Source: a virus. Taken from it: DNA of 45,861 nucleotides. Shown piece after piece: positions 36,531-45,024 of this stretch (its first letter is position 1; each line of letters starts with the position of its first letter). The stretch is taken from IMG/VR virus record IMGVR_UViG_3300031251_000040, positions 1 through 45,861 of that record. One strand, written 5' to 3'. Both the position numbers and the translations under genes were made by a program. The notes under the pieces were generated by a model that searched no databases, had not been told where the DNA came from, and saw only the letters and a program-made list of their open reading frames with translations.

Positions 36531-36725
36531 ATGACAAATACCGTTCAAAGTAACCCAAAGCCTCAAAGCCGTAGCGAAAGAAACCTTTTGAGCGCGTGCC
36601 TGGCACAAGCAATAGAAGAGGCGAGGCATTCGTTACGGTCATTGGGTTTTTGGCTCGGGCAATGGTGCCCGTTTCAATACCATAAACGAGCAAGGCAGGG
36701 GCTTTACACCTCCAAAGGAACATAA
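36531..36725 (+). CDS. Uncertain 64-residue reading frame
   Basis: A frame starting ATG at 36531 and ending TAA at 36723-36725, three bases before the ubiquitin-like gene. The N-terminus is Asn/Pro/Ser/Arg-rich, followed by NLLSACLAQAIEEARHSLRSLGFWLGQW and a basic end. There is no good ribosome site and no family recognised. It fills the only larger gap in the operon, which is the main reason to list it. The alternative is that 36494-36727 is an untranslated leader of the ubiquitin-like gene. Confidence 0.4.
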   Translation: MTNTVQSNPKPQSRSERNLLSACLAQAIEEARHSLRSLGFWLGQWCPFQYHKRARQGLYTSKGT

Positions 36726-36727
36726 TC

Positions 36728-36931
36728 ATGGCAAAGAACATCACAGCACAAGTATTAGGCGGCTCACCAAAAGTTATCGAAGCTGAAACCGTTCGCGACG
36801 CTTTCGACCAACTCGGTCTATCAGGCAATTACACGGCAGCAATTAACGGCGAGACTGCGTTAATGGATAGCTCGTTAAAAGACTATCAGCACGTATCTTT
36901 CGCGCTATCTGTCAAAGGTGGCCGTAAGTAA
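36728..36931 (+). CDS. Ubiquitin-like (beta-grasp, ThiS/MoaD-type) protein ending GG-RK
   Basis: 67 residues. The strand-helix-strand pattern ITAQVLGGSPKVIEA, TVRDAFDQLGL, YTAAINGETALMDSSLKD, VSFALSVKGG matches ThiS/MoaD/prokaryotic ubiquitin-like proteins: a strand, a 'Thr-Val-x-x-Ala' helix, the 'Val/Ile-Asn-Gly' turn, and a C-terminal strand leading into Gly-Gly. Two residues (Arg-Lys) follow the Gly-Gly, so a peptidase must trim it before activation, and a JAB protease is encoded 1.7 kb downstream. The ATG follows AAAGGAAC. A terminator lies between it and the enzymes, hinting at higher expression. The fold is called from pattern, not computed. Confidence 0.72.
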   Translation: MAKNITAQVLGGSPKVIEAETVRDAFDQLGLSGNYTAAINGETALMDSSLKDYQHVSFALSVKGGRK

Positions 36932-36974: not shown

Positions 36975-37007
36975 AAAAGGGCTAGAGGTAACACTTTAGC
37001 CCTTTTT
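36975..37007 (+). terminator. Attenuator/terminator between tag gene and enzymes
   Basis: AAAAGGGCTA (36975-36984) pairs with TAGCCCTTTT (36997-37006), a 10-bp stem with a 12-nt loop, followed by TATTT. It ends or attenuates transcription 40 nt after the ubiquitin-like gene and just before the pentapeptide-E2 gene, so the small protein may be made in excess over the enzymes. Confidence 0.75.
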
Positions 37008-37023
37008 ATTTAGAAAGGTTTAC

Positions 37024-38667
37024 ATGGATTCGCAGGAAAATTCTGGGACTGAGGCAGCCCAAGACATTTTTAGGGCTCAAACGTTAGTTTTGGCAAGTCT
37101 TTATAATGATGGGCCCAGACCCATAGTGGAATCTCGACAATATCAAAATTTTTTGACGCAAGCCCTAGCCGCCCGAAATATACGTTTTATAGACCTATTT
37201 AATGCGTTAGGCACGGAAAGAAACAATATGGAAGAAATCAAAGAAATGAAAGCAGAGGAAAACTCAGAGCCAATTAAACCTCTTTTCAGTGAGGCTAAAT
37301 TACAATTATTGGAGAGGGCCCACAGGAACAAGGGGGATGTTACTTTTGCGAATCTTGATCTTCGTGGGGTTAACTTTTCTGGGAGGAGTTTTGCGGGTGC
37401 GGATTTCTCGGGTTCAAATTGTGAGGGAGTAGACTTTGACCGCAGCCAGTTGAAAGCTTGTAATTTCCAAGGGGCTAACCTTAGAAAGGCTGAATTTAGG
37501 TTTACAGATTTAACTGAGTGCAATTTTGAGGGTGCCGACCTGTCCGGCGCAGTAATCTATACGAACAATGCCGTTAGTCTAAAAGCGAGAGATGCTAATT
37601 TTGAGGGAGCAGAATTAGGGCCCTCAATTTTTGACCGTAGCGACTTTAGAGGGGCCTCTTTTGTAAATATCATAGGCCATAGGGCATGTTTTTCATACTG
37701 CGATTTTACGGGTGCTGATTTTACGGGTGCTAGATTAGATGAGGCAAATTTAATAGGGGCAATTTTAAACAATGCCAATATGACTGACGCTACCATGCGA
37801 AAGGCTCACTTCTCGACTGACCCCTCTATCGACGGATGGATTCTTAAGAACACGATTTTACTAGGGACATCTTTAGAAAAGCTTACCCCTCGCCCGTTCA
37901 ATAAAGCAAATTTCTTGCACGTAATCGCTGCGACTGCGGAAGTAAGAGAGCTTGTTAAAGACCTAACCACAGAGGAAGAGGTTCTTAAGGCCATTTTTGA
38001 ATTCAATCAAAAACCTAAACCCAAAGCACCAAAGCGACGCCAGAATAGAAGCTCCGTTCTTTTCGTCAAGGCTTATAACGAAAAGATTCAAACCGACTAT
38101 ATTGCCCAGCTACTTCGGATTACTGAAGCTATTAAAACAGCGGACCGCAGGACATCCATTGGCACTATCCGTCTATCATTTCAAACGCCGCAACCGTTGC
38201 CGCCACTCATTTCACCAGATATTTTTGAGCACCCTCTTTTCAAAGTGAGACGCATCAAAGAAATTATTAAGCGTGGCAGATCTCTAGGTACGGTTATTCG
38301 GGTTGAGACACTGGAAGACGTTTTCTACACCTGGGAGGGCAATAAAATAAACGCTGGTAAGTTTAATTTCATCATTTCTTTGGACCATCTAAATATTCGT
38401 TTCATTCCGATAGAGGAAAACTTTACAGCTAGCGCAGGGCCCTACATCCATAATCAAGATGTTTGCTTGGGCGCTAACTCTGACTCAGTTTACTCTAAAA
38501 TTCGGAATGGCCAGATTTGCGATGCCTTAACCGAGCTATACACGACGATGACTCGTTTTAACACTTCAAGTACCCCTTACGTTGGTATTGACACGTTATT
38601 TCAGAGTGCAATCGATAAGAGATTATTCCGTAATAACGGCAATTTAGTGAAAGTAGAGGCTATTTAA
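37024..38667 (+). CDS. Pentapeptide-repeat protein with E2-like C-terminal domain
   Basis: 547 residues. N-terminal helical part (1-100); a right-handed beta-helix of pentapeptide repeats at about 105-263 (LDLRG, VNFSG, ADFSG, CNFQG, ADLSG and so on); a Lys/Pro/Arg linker (about 325-345); then a domain at about 410-547. The last domain has strands KFNFIISLDHLNIRFIPI, then PYIHNQDVCLGAN with H476 and C481, and a helical tail ending with SSTPY. The His-x4-Cys-Leu-Gly element preceded by a beta meander resembles prokaryotic E2/UBC-like families of ubiquitin-like operons. A pentapeptide-E2 fusion is unusual; the repeat could select targets. AAAGG precedes the ATG, and it overlaps the JAB gene (TAATG). 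Confidence 0.7.
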   Translation: MDSQENSGTEAAQDIFRAQTLVLASLYNDGPRPIVESRQYQNFLTQALAARNIRFIDLFNALGTERNNMEEIKEMKAEENSEPIKPLFSEAKLQLLERAHRNKGDVTFANLDLRGVNFSGRSFAGADFSGSNCEGVDFDRSQLKACNFQGANLRKAEFRFTDLTECNFEGADLSGAVIYTNNAVSLKARDANFEGAELGPSIFDRSDFRGASFVNIIGHRACFSYCDFTGADFTGARLDEANLIGAILNNANMTDATMRKAHFSTDPSIDGWILKNTILLGTSLEKLTPRPFNKANFLHVIAATAEVRELVKDLTTEEEVLKAIFEFNQKPKPKAPKRRQNRSSVLFVKAYNEKIQTDYIAQLLRITEAIKTADRRTSIGTIRLSFQTPQPLPPLISPDIFEHPLFKVRRIKEIIKRGRSLGTVIRVETLEDVFYTWEGNKINAGKFNFIISLDHLNIRFIPIEENFTASAGPYIHNQDVCLGANSDSVYSKIRNGQICDALTELYTTMTRFNTSSTPYVGIDTLFQSAIDKRLFRNNGNLVKVEAI

Positions 38668-39626
38668 TGAAAATTTCAATACCGTACCATATTTATGAGC
38701 AAATTCAGTTTTACGTCGATAAGTCAGACATTGAGTGTTCAGGCCTAGGAAAGGTTGTTGTAACCCCGGAAGGATACGCCGTTACAGAGATTACCCTTCT
38801 AAAGCAAGTGAATACCTCAACGCATACGGAAATCGATTCTCATGCGGTAACGAAGGCCATGTATGACCTTCGAAACTCAGTAGGGGGCCTATATTTTTGG
38901 TGGCACTCACACGTAAACATGGGAGTTTTTTGGTCTAATACTGACATTGACACGATCAAAGAAATTGGAGCACAGGGGCTTTGTGTGGCCGTTGTGTTTA
39001 ACAAGAAAAAAGAAATGAGGGGAGCAGTATGGCTCAAAGGTACAGAGTTAAGCCCCCATCTTTATTTTGATAATGTCGCTACTCAAATTGTTCACAATAT
39101 CGCTACCGAGGAAACTAAGAAAGCGTGGTCAGCCGATTTTGAGGATAAATGTAAGCCAAGGGCCGTAAATGTCGTTGACCCCTTTAACAAAGATTACACG
39201 GGGAGCAACTTAGCTAGAATCGGGCATCAAGCGGTAGAGAATGCCGCCAGAAATGCCCCTAAAGCTTACTTTGACCTGCCCCATTTTGAGACAAAGCTAG
39301 AAGATGCAGATAGAAAGCTTCTGAATGCTTTAAGTCAGGATTTAGTTTTTGCTATCTCTGAAAGCGCTGTGGATTCGACGTTAGAGCAAATTATCCCGAT
39401 TTTAAAACGGGCTAAAGCAAGCAAAACGGATCGTCGTAACGCGATTATCGAGTATAAAAACATGGCCCTAGAGCAAAAAGAGTTCCTAATGGAGCGAAAT
39501 GATTTAATTGAAAAGGCGTGGGGCCAAAGGGACGCAGACGATGTGGACGCCGAATATGACCCAAACGAAGAGAACTATGCCCATCATGATGATATTCCCG
39601 TTCATGACCGAAACAAAATGCAATAA
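38667..39626 (+). CDS. JAB/JAMM-family metalloprotease
   Basis: 319 residues. E23 (IECSGLG) and the HSH-x7-S-x2-D motif (H80, H82, S90, D93) form a complete JAMM zinc site. Residues 1-135 are the MPN/JAB domain; the rest is helical and acidic with an Asp/Glu-rich tail. In ubiquitin-like operons such enzymes trim the tag precursor or release it from targets. Here the tag needs removal of Arg-Lys, which fits. It begins one base into the stop of the preceding gene and is followed 11 nt later by the E1-like gene. Confidence 0.88.
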   Translation: MKISIPYHIYEQIQFYVDKSDIECSGLGKVVVTPEGYAVTEITLLKQVNTSTHTEIDSHAVTKAMYDLRNSVGGLYFWWHSHVNMGVFWSNTDIDTIKEIGAQGLCVAVVFNKKKEMRGAVWLKGTELSPHLYFDNVATQIVHNIATEETKKAWSADFEDKCKPRAVNVVDPFNKDYTGSNLARIGHQAVENAARNAPKAYFDLPHFETKLEDADRKLLNALSQDLVFAISESAVDSTLEQIIPILKRAKASKTDRRNAIIEYKNMALEQKEFLMERNDLIEKAWGQRDADDVDAEYDPNEENYAHHDDIPVHDRNKMQ

Positions 39627-39637
39627 GGAGAAATCAA

Positions 39638-40345
39638 ATGTTAATTATGAGTAATACACCTTTAGAAGTTGCTAACGACCTACGAGACAAGAAACACTTA
39701 ACGCGTCATTTTGATTTAATTTCAGGCGATGGGCTCAAAAAACCCATCACAGTTATTGGGGCGGGCGGTATCGGCTCGTGGGTAACTTTTGCACTGGCTA
39801 AAATGGGCTTTGAGCATATTCGAGTCTATGACCCCGATAAGGTAGCCATTGAGAACGTCGGCAATCAACTCTATGGCATTAGCGACATTGGCAAATACAA
39901 GGTCGAGGCTTTGCGCGAAATTTGTTTAAACGTGGGATGCGAAATCAAAACAGTGCCCATGTTATTTTCACCCTTAGATGCTTGCGCAGTCGAGGGCATC
40001 GTGGTGTTAGCCGTTGATTCAATGAAAGCCCGTGCCGAAATTACAGCGGACCTTTGCGAGGATGTTGTCATGATTGATGGCCGCATGGGGGCTGAAAAGA
40101 TTCTCCTTTATACGGCCTTTGATGAGCCTACGCGCGACATTTACGCTAAAAGCCTATATTCTGACGACGAGGCCGAAAAGACGCCTTGCACTGCCAAGGC
40201 CACGAGTTACTGTGCTTTAACTATCGCGGGGCTTATCGTTGGGCAGATCAAGTCTTTCATCCAAGGGCAGCAAACTATCAAAAATATGAGTATGGATGCG
40301 GCTAGTGGGGCATCCATTCGCTTCGCTCATGCCGCTATCCAATGA
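39638..40345 (+). CDS. E1/ThiF/MoeB-like adenylyltransferase
   Basis: 235 residues. A Rossmann nucleotide loop VIGAGGIGS (39-47), an ATP-binding acidic pair D65/D67, the ENVGNQLYGISDIGKYKVEAL segment with K88, and PCTAKATSYCA with C184 and C192 (a candidate thioester cysteine) are all in E1-like order. The Arg usual in the N-x-x-R-Q motif of MoeB/ThiF is Asn76 here, a change I recall in other JAB-linked prokaryotic E1-like proteins. It should adenylate the exposed Gly-Gly end of the ubiquitin-like protein and form a thioester. AAGGAG lies before the ATG (39638). It is too short for an E1 with a separate adenylation-cysteine insertion. Confidence 0.88.
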   Translation: MLIMSNTPLEVANDLRDKKHLTRHFDLISGDGLKKPITVIGAGGIGSWVTFALAKMGFEHIRVYDPDKVAIENVGNQLYGISDIGKYKVEALREICLNVGCEIKTVPMLFSPLDACAVEGIVVLAVDSMKARAEITADLCEDVVMIDGRMGAEKILLYTAFDEPTRDIYAKSLYSDDEAEKTPCTAKATSYCALTIAGLIVGQIKSFIQGQQTIKNMSMDAASGASIRFAHAAIQ

Positions 40346-44309: not shown

Positions 44310-44695
44310 AAACAGAAATCAATGAAATTGCAATCAACGGGGAAGTTTACGTTAAAAAAGGAATTGAATCAAAAACAGCTTTCAATTCCGAAGGTAAAAA
44401 ATATCAAATCATTCGCACTTATTCGGCAGGTGTATTCGCCGGATATGTTGAAAGCGAAAAAACGGAAGGTGGATCAACACAAATGGTAGTTCGCGACGCG
44501 AGACGACTATGGTCTTGGGCCGGGGCCGCTTCGCTTTCTGAATTAGCGAAAAAAGGAACATCGAAACCAAATGAATGTAAATTTCCATGCGCGGTAGACC
44601 GCGTGGAACTAAAGCAAGTTATCGAAGTTTTAGATGTAACTGAAGCGGCTAAAAAATCAATTGACGGGGTTAAAGTATGGACGAATCACAACTAA
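44306..44695 (+). CDS. DUF6948-like phage protein
   Basis: 129 residues. The sequence IAINGEVYVKKG, IIRTYSAGVFAGYVES, RDARRLWSWAGAASLSELA, CKFPCAVDRVELKQVIEVLD matches a phage-specific domain that I recall as DUF6948: a beta-rich protein with a conserved AGVFAGY...RRLW-x-W...AASL core and Cys residues. The biochemical role is unknown. It directly precedes and overlaps the glycine-rich gene, a pairing I recall from other phages. Confidence 0.75.
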   Translation: MKTEINEIAINGEVYVKKGIESKTAFNSEGKKYQIIRTYSAGVFAGYVESEKTEGGSTQMVVRDARRLWSWAGAASLSELAKKGTSKPNECKFPCAVDRVELKQVIEVLDVTEAAKKSIDGVKVWTNHN

Positions 44696-45024
44696 ACGGC
44701 AGCGGCTTCAGCTACGGCGGCGGTTACGGCAGCGGCAGCGGCTTCAGCTACGGCGGCGGTTACGGCGGCGGCAGCGGCGGCGGCAGCGGCAGCGGCGACG
44801 GCAGCGGCTTCAGCTACGGCGGCGGCTTCAGCTACGGCGGCGGTTACGGCGGCGGCAGCGGCAGCGGCAGCGGCGACGGCAGCGGCTTCAGCTACGGCGG
44901 CGGCTTCGGCTACGGCAGCGGCAGCGGCTTCGGCGACGGCAGCGGTTACGGCTACGGCGACGGAGACGGCGACGGCAGCGGCAACGGATTCGTCTACGGC
45001 GGCAGCTACGGCGGCGGCAACTAA
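44677..45024 (+). CDS. Glycine-rich repetitive protein
   Basis: 115 residues. After MDESQLN almost the whole chain is built from Gly with Ser, Tyr, Phe and Asp (FSYGGGYG, SGSGFSY, GDGSGFSYGG), in a hexanucleotide-like DNA repeat (GGCGGCGGTTACGGC). Such sequences could form extended, sticky or phase-separating chains. The base composition is far richer in G and C than the rest of the window. It overlaps the DUF6948-like gene by 19 nt. Opposite-strand and other frames are long only because of the repeat. Function unknown. Confidence 0.75.
   Translation: MDESQLNGSGFSYGGGYGSGSGFSYGGGYGGGSGGGSGSGDGSGFSYGGGFSYGGGYGGGSGSGSGDGSGFSYGGGFGYGSGSGFGDGSGYGYGDGDGDGSGNGFVYGGSYGGGN

Follow-up and report, generated by a model that had tools for sequence, protein, structure and literature searches.

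The window, by which we mean the whole stretch of 45,861 nucleotides that was analysed, is a virus record in which portal, terminase and primase genes lie around a cassette of four genes on the plus strand. The first gene (36728–36931) has the sequence AAAGGA upstream of its start codon (36714–36719) and encodes a protein of 67 amino acids, here called the tag, with the translation MAKNITAQ...SFALSVKGGRK. An earlier note on this DNA had stated that the tag ends with Lys-Gly-Gly-Arg-Lys. This is correct, as these residues and the stop codon occupy exactly positions 36914–36931 (Lys63, 36914–36916; Gly64, 36917–36919; Gly65, 36920–36922; Arg66, 36923–36925; Lys67, 36926–36928; stop, 36929–36931). 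The final Arg-Lys (36923–36928) is unconserved in the homologues and, from the family comparison given below, is predicted to be a propeptide; its removal by the JAB protease is inferred.

The AlphaFold2 model of the tag (pLDDT 86.6) is a beta-grasp with the order beta-beta-alpha-beta-beta, with the C-terminal tail modelled at low confidence. Its neighbours in a Foldseek search are MTH1743, TtuB, MoaD, ubiquitin and NEDD8, the last four with TM scores of 0.6–0.7 and the best E-value being 1e-3. The family profile leads to the archaeal modifier SAMP2 (E = 3e-9) and aligns VKGG on the terminal VSGG of SAMP2; a chain from the solved JAMM1–SAMP2 structure (5lda) is among these matches. Judged from model and profile, the 67-residue protein is a ubiquitin-like beta-grasp protein of the ThiS/MoaD/SAMP2 type, and it satisfies the fold criterion for ubiquitin-like modifiers. 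It has no match in Pfam, PHROGs or PADLOC and none below E = 0.1 in NCBIfam, and phage records searched directly with its sequence yielded nothing. The alignment of ubiquitin-like proteins is moreover too diverse to support a pattern search.

The second gene (37024–38667, plus strand) lies between the tag and the JAB gene and is not mentioned in the finding of the earlier note. Its product of 547 amino acids consists of pentapeptide repeats at about residues 100–265 (Pfam Pentapeptide, E = 6e-31) and a C-terminal domain (38089–38667) which, according to fold prediction and sequence profile, is E2 (UBC)-like, so that the gene is taken to encode an E2-like enzyme. The model of this domain has a pLDDT of 86.4. 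A plain Foldseek search gave weak E-values, and the identification needed VIA-align together with the sequence profile. With VIA-align the top 50 hits were all E2/UBC chains, with middling but consistent Z-scores of 6.7–7.8 over 120–133 aligned residues. The profile of the family matches E2 enzymes (E = 3e-5) and places the Cys of the family on the catalytic Cys, with HPHvsesgtiCwG aligned over HPNVYADGSICLD of real E2 enzymes. This candidate catalytic residue (Cys126 of the domain, codon 38461–38463) is invariant in 34 homologues; both the UBC fold and the catalytic Cys required of E2 enzymes are present. Most relatives have HPH..CWG or HPN before the Cys. An HPN-type motif is absent in the window and in a close relative, L002 (PYI..VCLG); the motif of the window is degenerate (PYIHNQDVCLG) with the Cys retained. 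The fusion to pentapeptide repeats (37024–37820) is a feature of this locus, and at other loci the E2-like proteins carry different, long N- or C-terminal extensions. Such extensions may act in target choice.

The third gene (38667–39626) encodes a JAB/JAMM metalloprotease of 319 amino acids and the fourth (39638–40345) an E1-like adenylating enzyme of the ThiF family of 235 amino acids (E = 3e-21), both on the plus strand and at the positions which the earlier note had implied. The JAB protein meets the zinc-site criterion for JAMM proteases, E-x(n)-HxHx7Sx2D, with residues E23, H80, H82, S90 and D93, all of which are invariant in 21 homologues. Prok-JAB is matched by 17 of these 21, and the exact HxHx7Sx2D motif is found in 128 of the 133 JAB copies at the loci (some contigs counted twice). 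The best match of the JAB profile to a solved structure is the archaeal CsRpn11 (6fjv, E = 2.4e-6), a protease which cuts the 9-residue tail of a ubiquitin precursor exactly after Gly-Gly (PMC6043591).

The E1-like protein likewise satisfies what is expected of its class: the GxGxxG nucleotide loop, the Asp and Lys of the ATP site and a catalytic Cys. Invariant in 21 homologues are GxGxxG and the candidate Cys184 (codon 40187–40189), which stands in a CTAKAT-type motif, as well as G41, G43, G46, D65, K88 and D127. The E1 profile matches UBA1, UBA3, UBA5, ThiF, MoeB, Cap2 and BubCD. One residue deviates. The Arg of the NxxRQ motif, which corresponds to Arg73 in the ATP site of MoeB (PMC12355090), is absent in all 21 aligned relatives, where N, S, C or P is found instead; residues 73–77 or so of the window protein (N at this position) read NVGNQ as compared to NLNRQ in classical E1s, among them UBA1, which has this motif at the corresponding position.

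Between the tag and the enzyme genes we found a terminator-like hairpin with a U run (36976–37012, plus strand; dG –19.3 kcal/mol, z –5.7). Similar hairpins are present in 13 of 45 homologous gaps, whereas 0.3 are expected from shuffled sequences. The earlier note had placed the tag and the JAB protease in the same operon. The genes do neighbour each other, but the hairpin separates the tag from the three enzyme genes and the term operon is thus only appropriate if there is partial read-through. The simplest reading is that the hairpin causes partial termination, so that more tag than enzymes is made.

Since the tag does not match any profile family, relatives of the cassette were gathered via the JAB and E1 proteins. 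Searches with the JAB protein of the window, the JAB alignment and the E1 alignment yielded about 100 viral contigs, in most of which the ubiquitin-like protein, E2, JAB and E1 co-occur. The usual gene order is that of the window, with E1 sometimes before JAB or before the ubiquitin-like gene. A single pattern scan of bacterial genomes, which may have missed others, returned only two MAG contigs, and the family therefore looks mainly viral.

The C-terminal ends were scored for 86 distinct ubiquitin-like proteins. They are Gly-Gly in 66, Gly-Ala in 11 and Ala-Gly in 9 cases, so the criterion of a C-terminal Gly-Gly (or Gly/Ala) after the last strand is satisfied. This end is followed by a tail in 62 proteins: one residue in 36, two residues in 16 and 3–37 residues in 10, with no common tail sequence, while 24 proteins have no tail. 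Gly-Gly within the last six residues is seen in 32 of 48 ubiquitin-like homologues as compared to 51 of 2558 open reading frames of similar size from the same loci (2%), a frequency well above chance. L001, which is the closest homologue and shares 72% of the aligned residues, ends with VKGGNL and the next one (L002) with VKGGL; compared to VKGGRK of the window, this means that Gly-Gly is kept whereas the tail varies. In our core alignment of 21 sequences Gly64 is invariant and position 65 is either Gly or Ala. A lack of conserved Gly-Gly with unrelated ends would have refuted the earlier note; instead GG or GA/AG is kept in nearly all homologues and only the residues which follow are unrelated.

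The tails themselves show some regularities. Of 53 short tails, 25 have a basic residue (Lys or Arg) at the end, compared to 18% of long open reading frames at the same loci (p = 1.5e-6, uncorrected for kinship). Tails are also commoner on GG ends (55 of 66) than on GA/AG ends (7 of 20; Fisher p = 7e-5). Considering kinship this association is unconfirmed; there are only two independent supported pairs on the tree, which is too few, and we regard it as a lead only. On the E1 tree a tail was gained or lost about 18 times.

In four relatives (L021, 6236–6649; L040, 9621–10031; L110, 5489–5905; L136, 9163–9636) the gene encodes a head-to-tail pair of beta-grasp copies, each of which ends with GG, for example ...VPKVKGG-QKLVKVARLG...VPKVKGG-K. 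This layout resembles a polyubiquitin precursor or ISG15. Provided that the tag works as a monomer, its release requires endoproteolysis behind the first GG, and the co-encoded JAB protease is placed to make this cut, although such a cleavage is inferred.

We suggest that the tag is a precursor of a phage-encoded ubiquitin-like modifier which is matured, conjugated and removed in the following steps. The JAB protease, whose gene is the second one downstream of the tag, would cut after Gly65, whereby Arg-Lys is lost. The E1-like enzyme would then adenylate the freed Gly-Gly carboxylate, and the tag could be passed as a thioester first to Cys184 of E1, then to the conserved Cys in the E2-like domain and finally to target proteins, from which the same JAB protease would probably release it later. 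We assign a probability of roughly 0.78 to this reading. The degenerate motif in the E2-like domain of the window and the Arg missing from its E1 speak against it. The sequence, the conservation, the tandem genes and the catalytic residues are observed and the folds are predicted; cleavage, conjugation, deconjugation and the targets are inferred without biochemistry. The proposal of the earlier note that the JAB protease is the enzyme which processes the tag gains support from the conserved Gly-Gly with its variable tail, from the tandem genes, from the invariant catalytic residues and from the match to CsRpn11.

Is tail removal the job of the JAB protease at all? It could be an isopeptidase acting in deconjugation only, with the tail trimmed by a host carboxypeptidase or another protease, or with the tag maturing otherwise. 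Nearly all tail-less cassettes still carry a JAB gene, the many gains and losses on the E1 tree make the tail look dispensable, and basic tails of one or two residues would suit a carboxypeptidase. Such an enzyme does not account, however, for the tandem genes and for tails of up to 37 residues, which need an endoprotease at the Gly-Gly, and CsRpn11 as the closest characterised relative does both jobs. There is also a cassette without JAB. Xanthomonas phage PhiXhv-12, a jumbo phage (L066, 805–4681), has a ubiquitin-like protein which ends with SGG without a tail, alongside an E2 domain and E1, and no JAB was detected by profile in its whole 227 kb genome. This single case points in the direction predicted if the JAB protease processes the tag. 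We consider an exclusive role in deconjugation unlikely. What we do take from the JAB genes beside tail-less tags is that tail removal is probably not the sole job of the protease: it probably also removes the tag from targets, and this deconjugation, itself inferred, is probably its more general function.

A second alternative leaves the unmasking of the Gly-Gly to the JAB protease but sees the tag as a sulfur carrier, which donates a thiocarboxylate as in the ThiS/MoaD or siderophore pathways. The nearest folds of the tag include ThiS, MoaD and TtuB, the E1 is ThiF-like, and sulfur-transfer operons with JAB, a ThiS-like protein and E1 are described in a comparative study (PMC1779556). Conjugation is favoured over sulfur transfer by the E2-like gene which accompanies the set in most loci, by the E1 with its invariant Cys in the CTAKAT-type motif and by the absence of a rhodanese or biosynthetic enzyme among the neighbouring genes scanned. 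A sulfur-carrier cassette therefore appears improbable to us.

The position of the cut has also to be weighed. As in single-glycine modifiers, cleavage could follow Lys-Gly64 and residue 65 would then already belong to the tail. This would agree with the core alignment, where only Gly64 is invariant, and every protein in that alignment would have a tail of at least one residue. The wider set, however, includes the ends VKAG, IDAG and SAG, where the upstream residue is also Gly or Ala, and it is the terminal GG of SAMP2 which aligns with VKGG. Moreover, Ala at the last position is no obstacle to known enzymes. CsRpn11 still processes a Gly78Ala variant of its precursor, but it cuts Gly77Ala slowly and Gly77Val not at all (PMC6043591); this tolerance, strict for the penultimate Gly and permissive for the last residue, mirrors the core alignment. 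The bacterial Cap2 conjugates via a final Gly or Ala (PMC10097602). Because both enzymes accept Ala as the last residue we prefer a cut after position 65 and give little credence to one after position 64. That the tail merely reflects neutral drift of the stop codon without any need for processing would explain its unconserved sequence and its length of 0 to 37 residues, but this is very unlikely as the substrate of E1 enzymes is a free carboxylate at the C-terminus (which is established for pairs of E1 and ubiquitin-like protein), most GG-ending homologues are tailed and the short tails are enriched in terminal Lys/Arg.

The proposed maturation of the tag by the JAB protease has its closest parallel in the archaeal CsUb/CsRpn11 system of Caldiarchaeum subterraneum, where a short precursor tail follows Gly-Gly, a JAMM protease cuts there and also deconjugates, and E1 and E2 are co-encoded. 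That system is cellular and its tag is ubiquitin, whereas the phage tag is a ThiS/SAMP-type protein. In contrast to the CsUb/CsRpn11 operon, the phage E2 is fused to pentapeptide repeats, and we noticed no RING E3 in the window.

The same four functions are also known from bacterial operons encoding a ubiquitin-like protein, E2, JAB and E1 (Iyer et al. 2006, rows 6a–6e; later the ISG15-like BIL and Bub systems). Multi-ubiquitin-like proteins occur there too (PMC1779556). BubCD is one of many E1s matched by the E1 profile of the window (E = 4e-9), while PADLOC gives no match for the ubiquitin-like protein, E2 or JAB of the window. In BIL the gene order is also ubiquitin-like protein, E2, JAB, E1. 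Several of the bacterial operons serve in anti-phage defence, whereas the phage cassette lies between packaging and replication genes. We conclude that the cassette is a viral variant of the known prokaryotic systems. The accessible part of the 2006 survey does not show the four-gene version in phages, which appear there with lambda-type tail proteins. The literature we found on phage cassettes of this type is limited to the 2006 comparative study and to reviews; subscription literature was outside our scope and a prior description is not excluded.

Two other known cassettes were considered and rejected. The PRTRC cassette of plasmids and mobile elements comprises a ubiquitin-like protein, an E2-like protein, JAB and ThiF proteins. 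The E1 of the window reaches only 46 bits with PRTRC_ThiF (cut-off 145), JAB matches PRTRC_A in one of 21 relatives (E = 0.01), and neither the ubiquitin-like protein nor the E2 has a PRTRC-type match. Type II CBASS (Cap2/Cap3) does not apply either: E1 and E2 are separate genes here, the neighbouring genes scanned do not match a CD-NTase and PADLOC shows only partial E1–E2 matches to the window E1.

Trimming of a ThiS-like protein by a JAB protease such that a glycine is exposed is predicted or known for QbsE/QbsD (thioquinolobactin) and for TAPI/TAPK of phage lambda, again according to the comparative study (PMC1779556). Both are without an E2 and serve sulfur transfer or tail assembly, not conjugation. 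QbsE has a two-residue tail.

Divergent forms exist in crAss-like and Flavobacterium phages. In Kolpuevirus, Fpv3 and bajarodcaudo virus, JAB adjoins E1 in cultured or complete genomes, and the genes carry no annotation beyond metalloprotease and thiamine biosynthesis protein. Near JAB and E1 are proteins (L063, 2968–3753; L064, 1526–2287; L065, 1607–2476) with an N-terminal ThiS-like stretch ending with KIKSGA or QVKSGG and then roughly 150–200 more residues. The predicted precursor would thus be a fusion, unlike the tag of the window, and it is possible that cultured phages encode tag precursors in fused form. In these phages the E2 candidate has diverged beyond the reach of our profile.

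Ubiquitin-like conjugation serves bacteria as a defence against phages; in the present case the same four functions are encoded by phages. Going beyond the single locus, we think it reasonably likely, with less assurance than for the precursor itself, that diverse tailed phages encode a complete and self-contained ubiquitin-like pathway, consisting of a precursor, E1, E2 and a JAB protease for both maturation and removal, in some cases with a head-to-tail dimer as tag, and that they modify host or virion proteins with it during infection. Should this hold, a modifier pathway carried by phages, with a precursor which matures much as ubiquitin does in eukaryotes and archaea, would exist outside the genomes of cells. 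The natural variation, that is tags without tail, with long tails, in tandem copies or with Gly-Ala ends, would then be useful for learning how JAB proteases recognize their substrates.

Apart from the cassette, we observed in the window a reading frame at 44677–45024 which consists almost entirely of Gly-Ser-Tyr-Phe-Asp repeats (GFSYGGGYGSGSG...).
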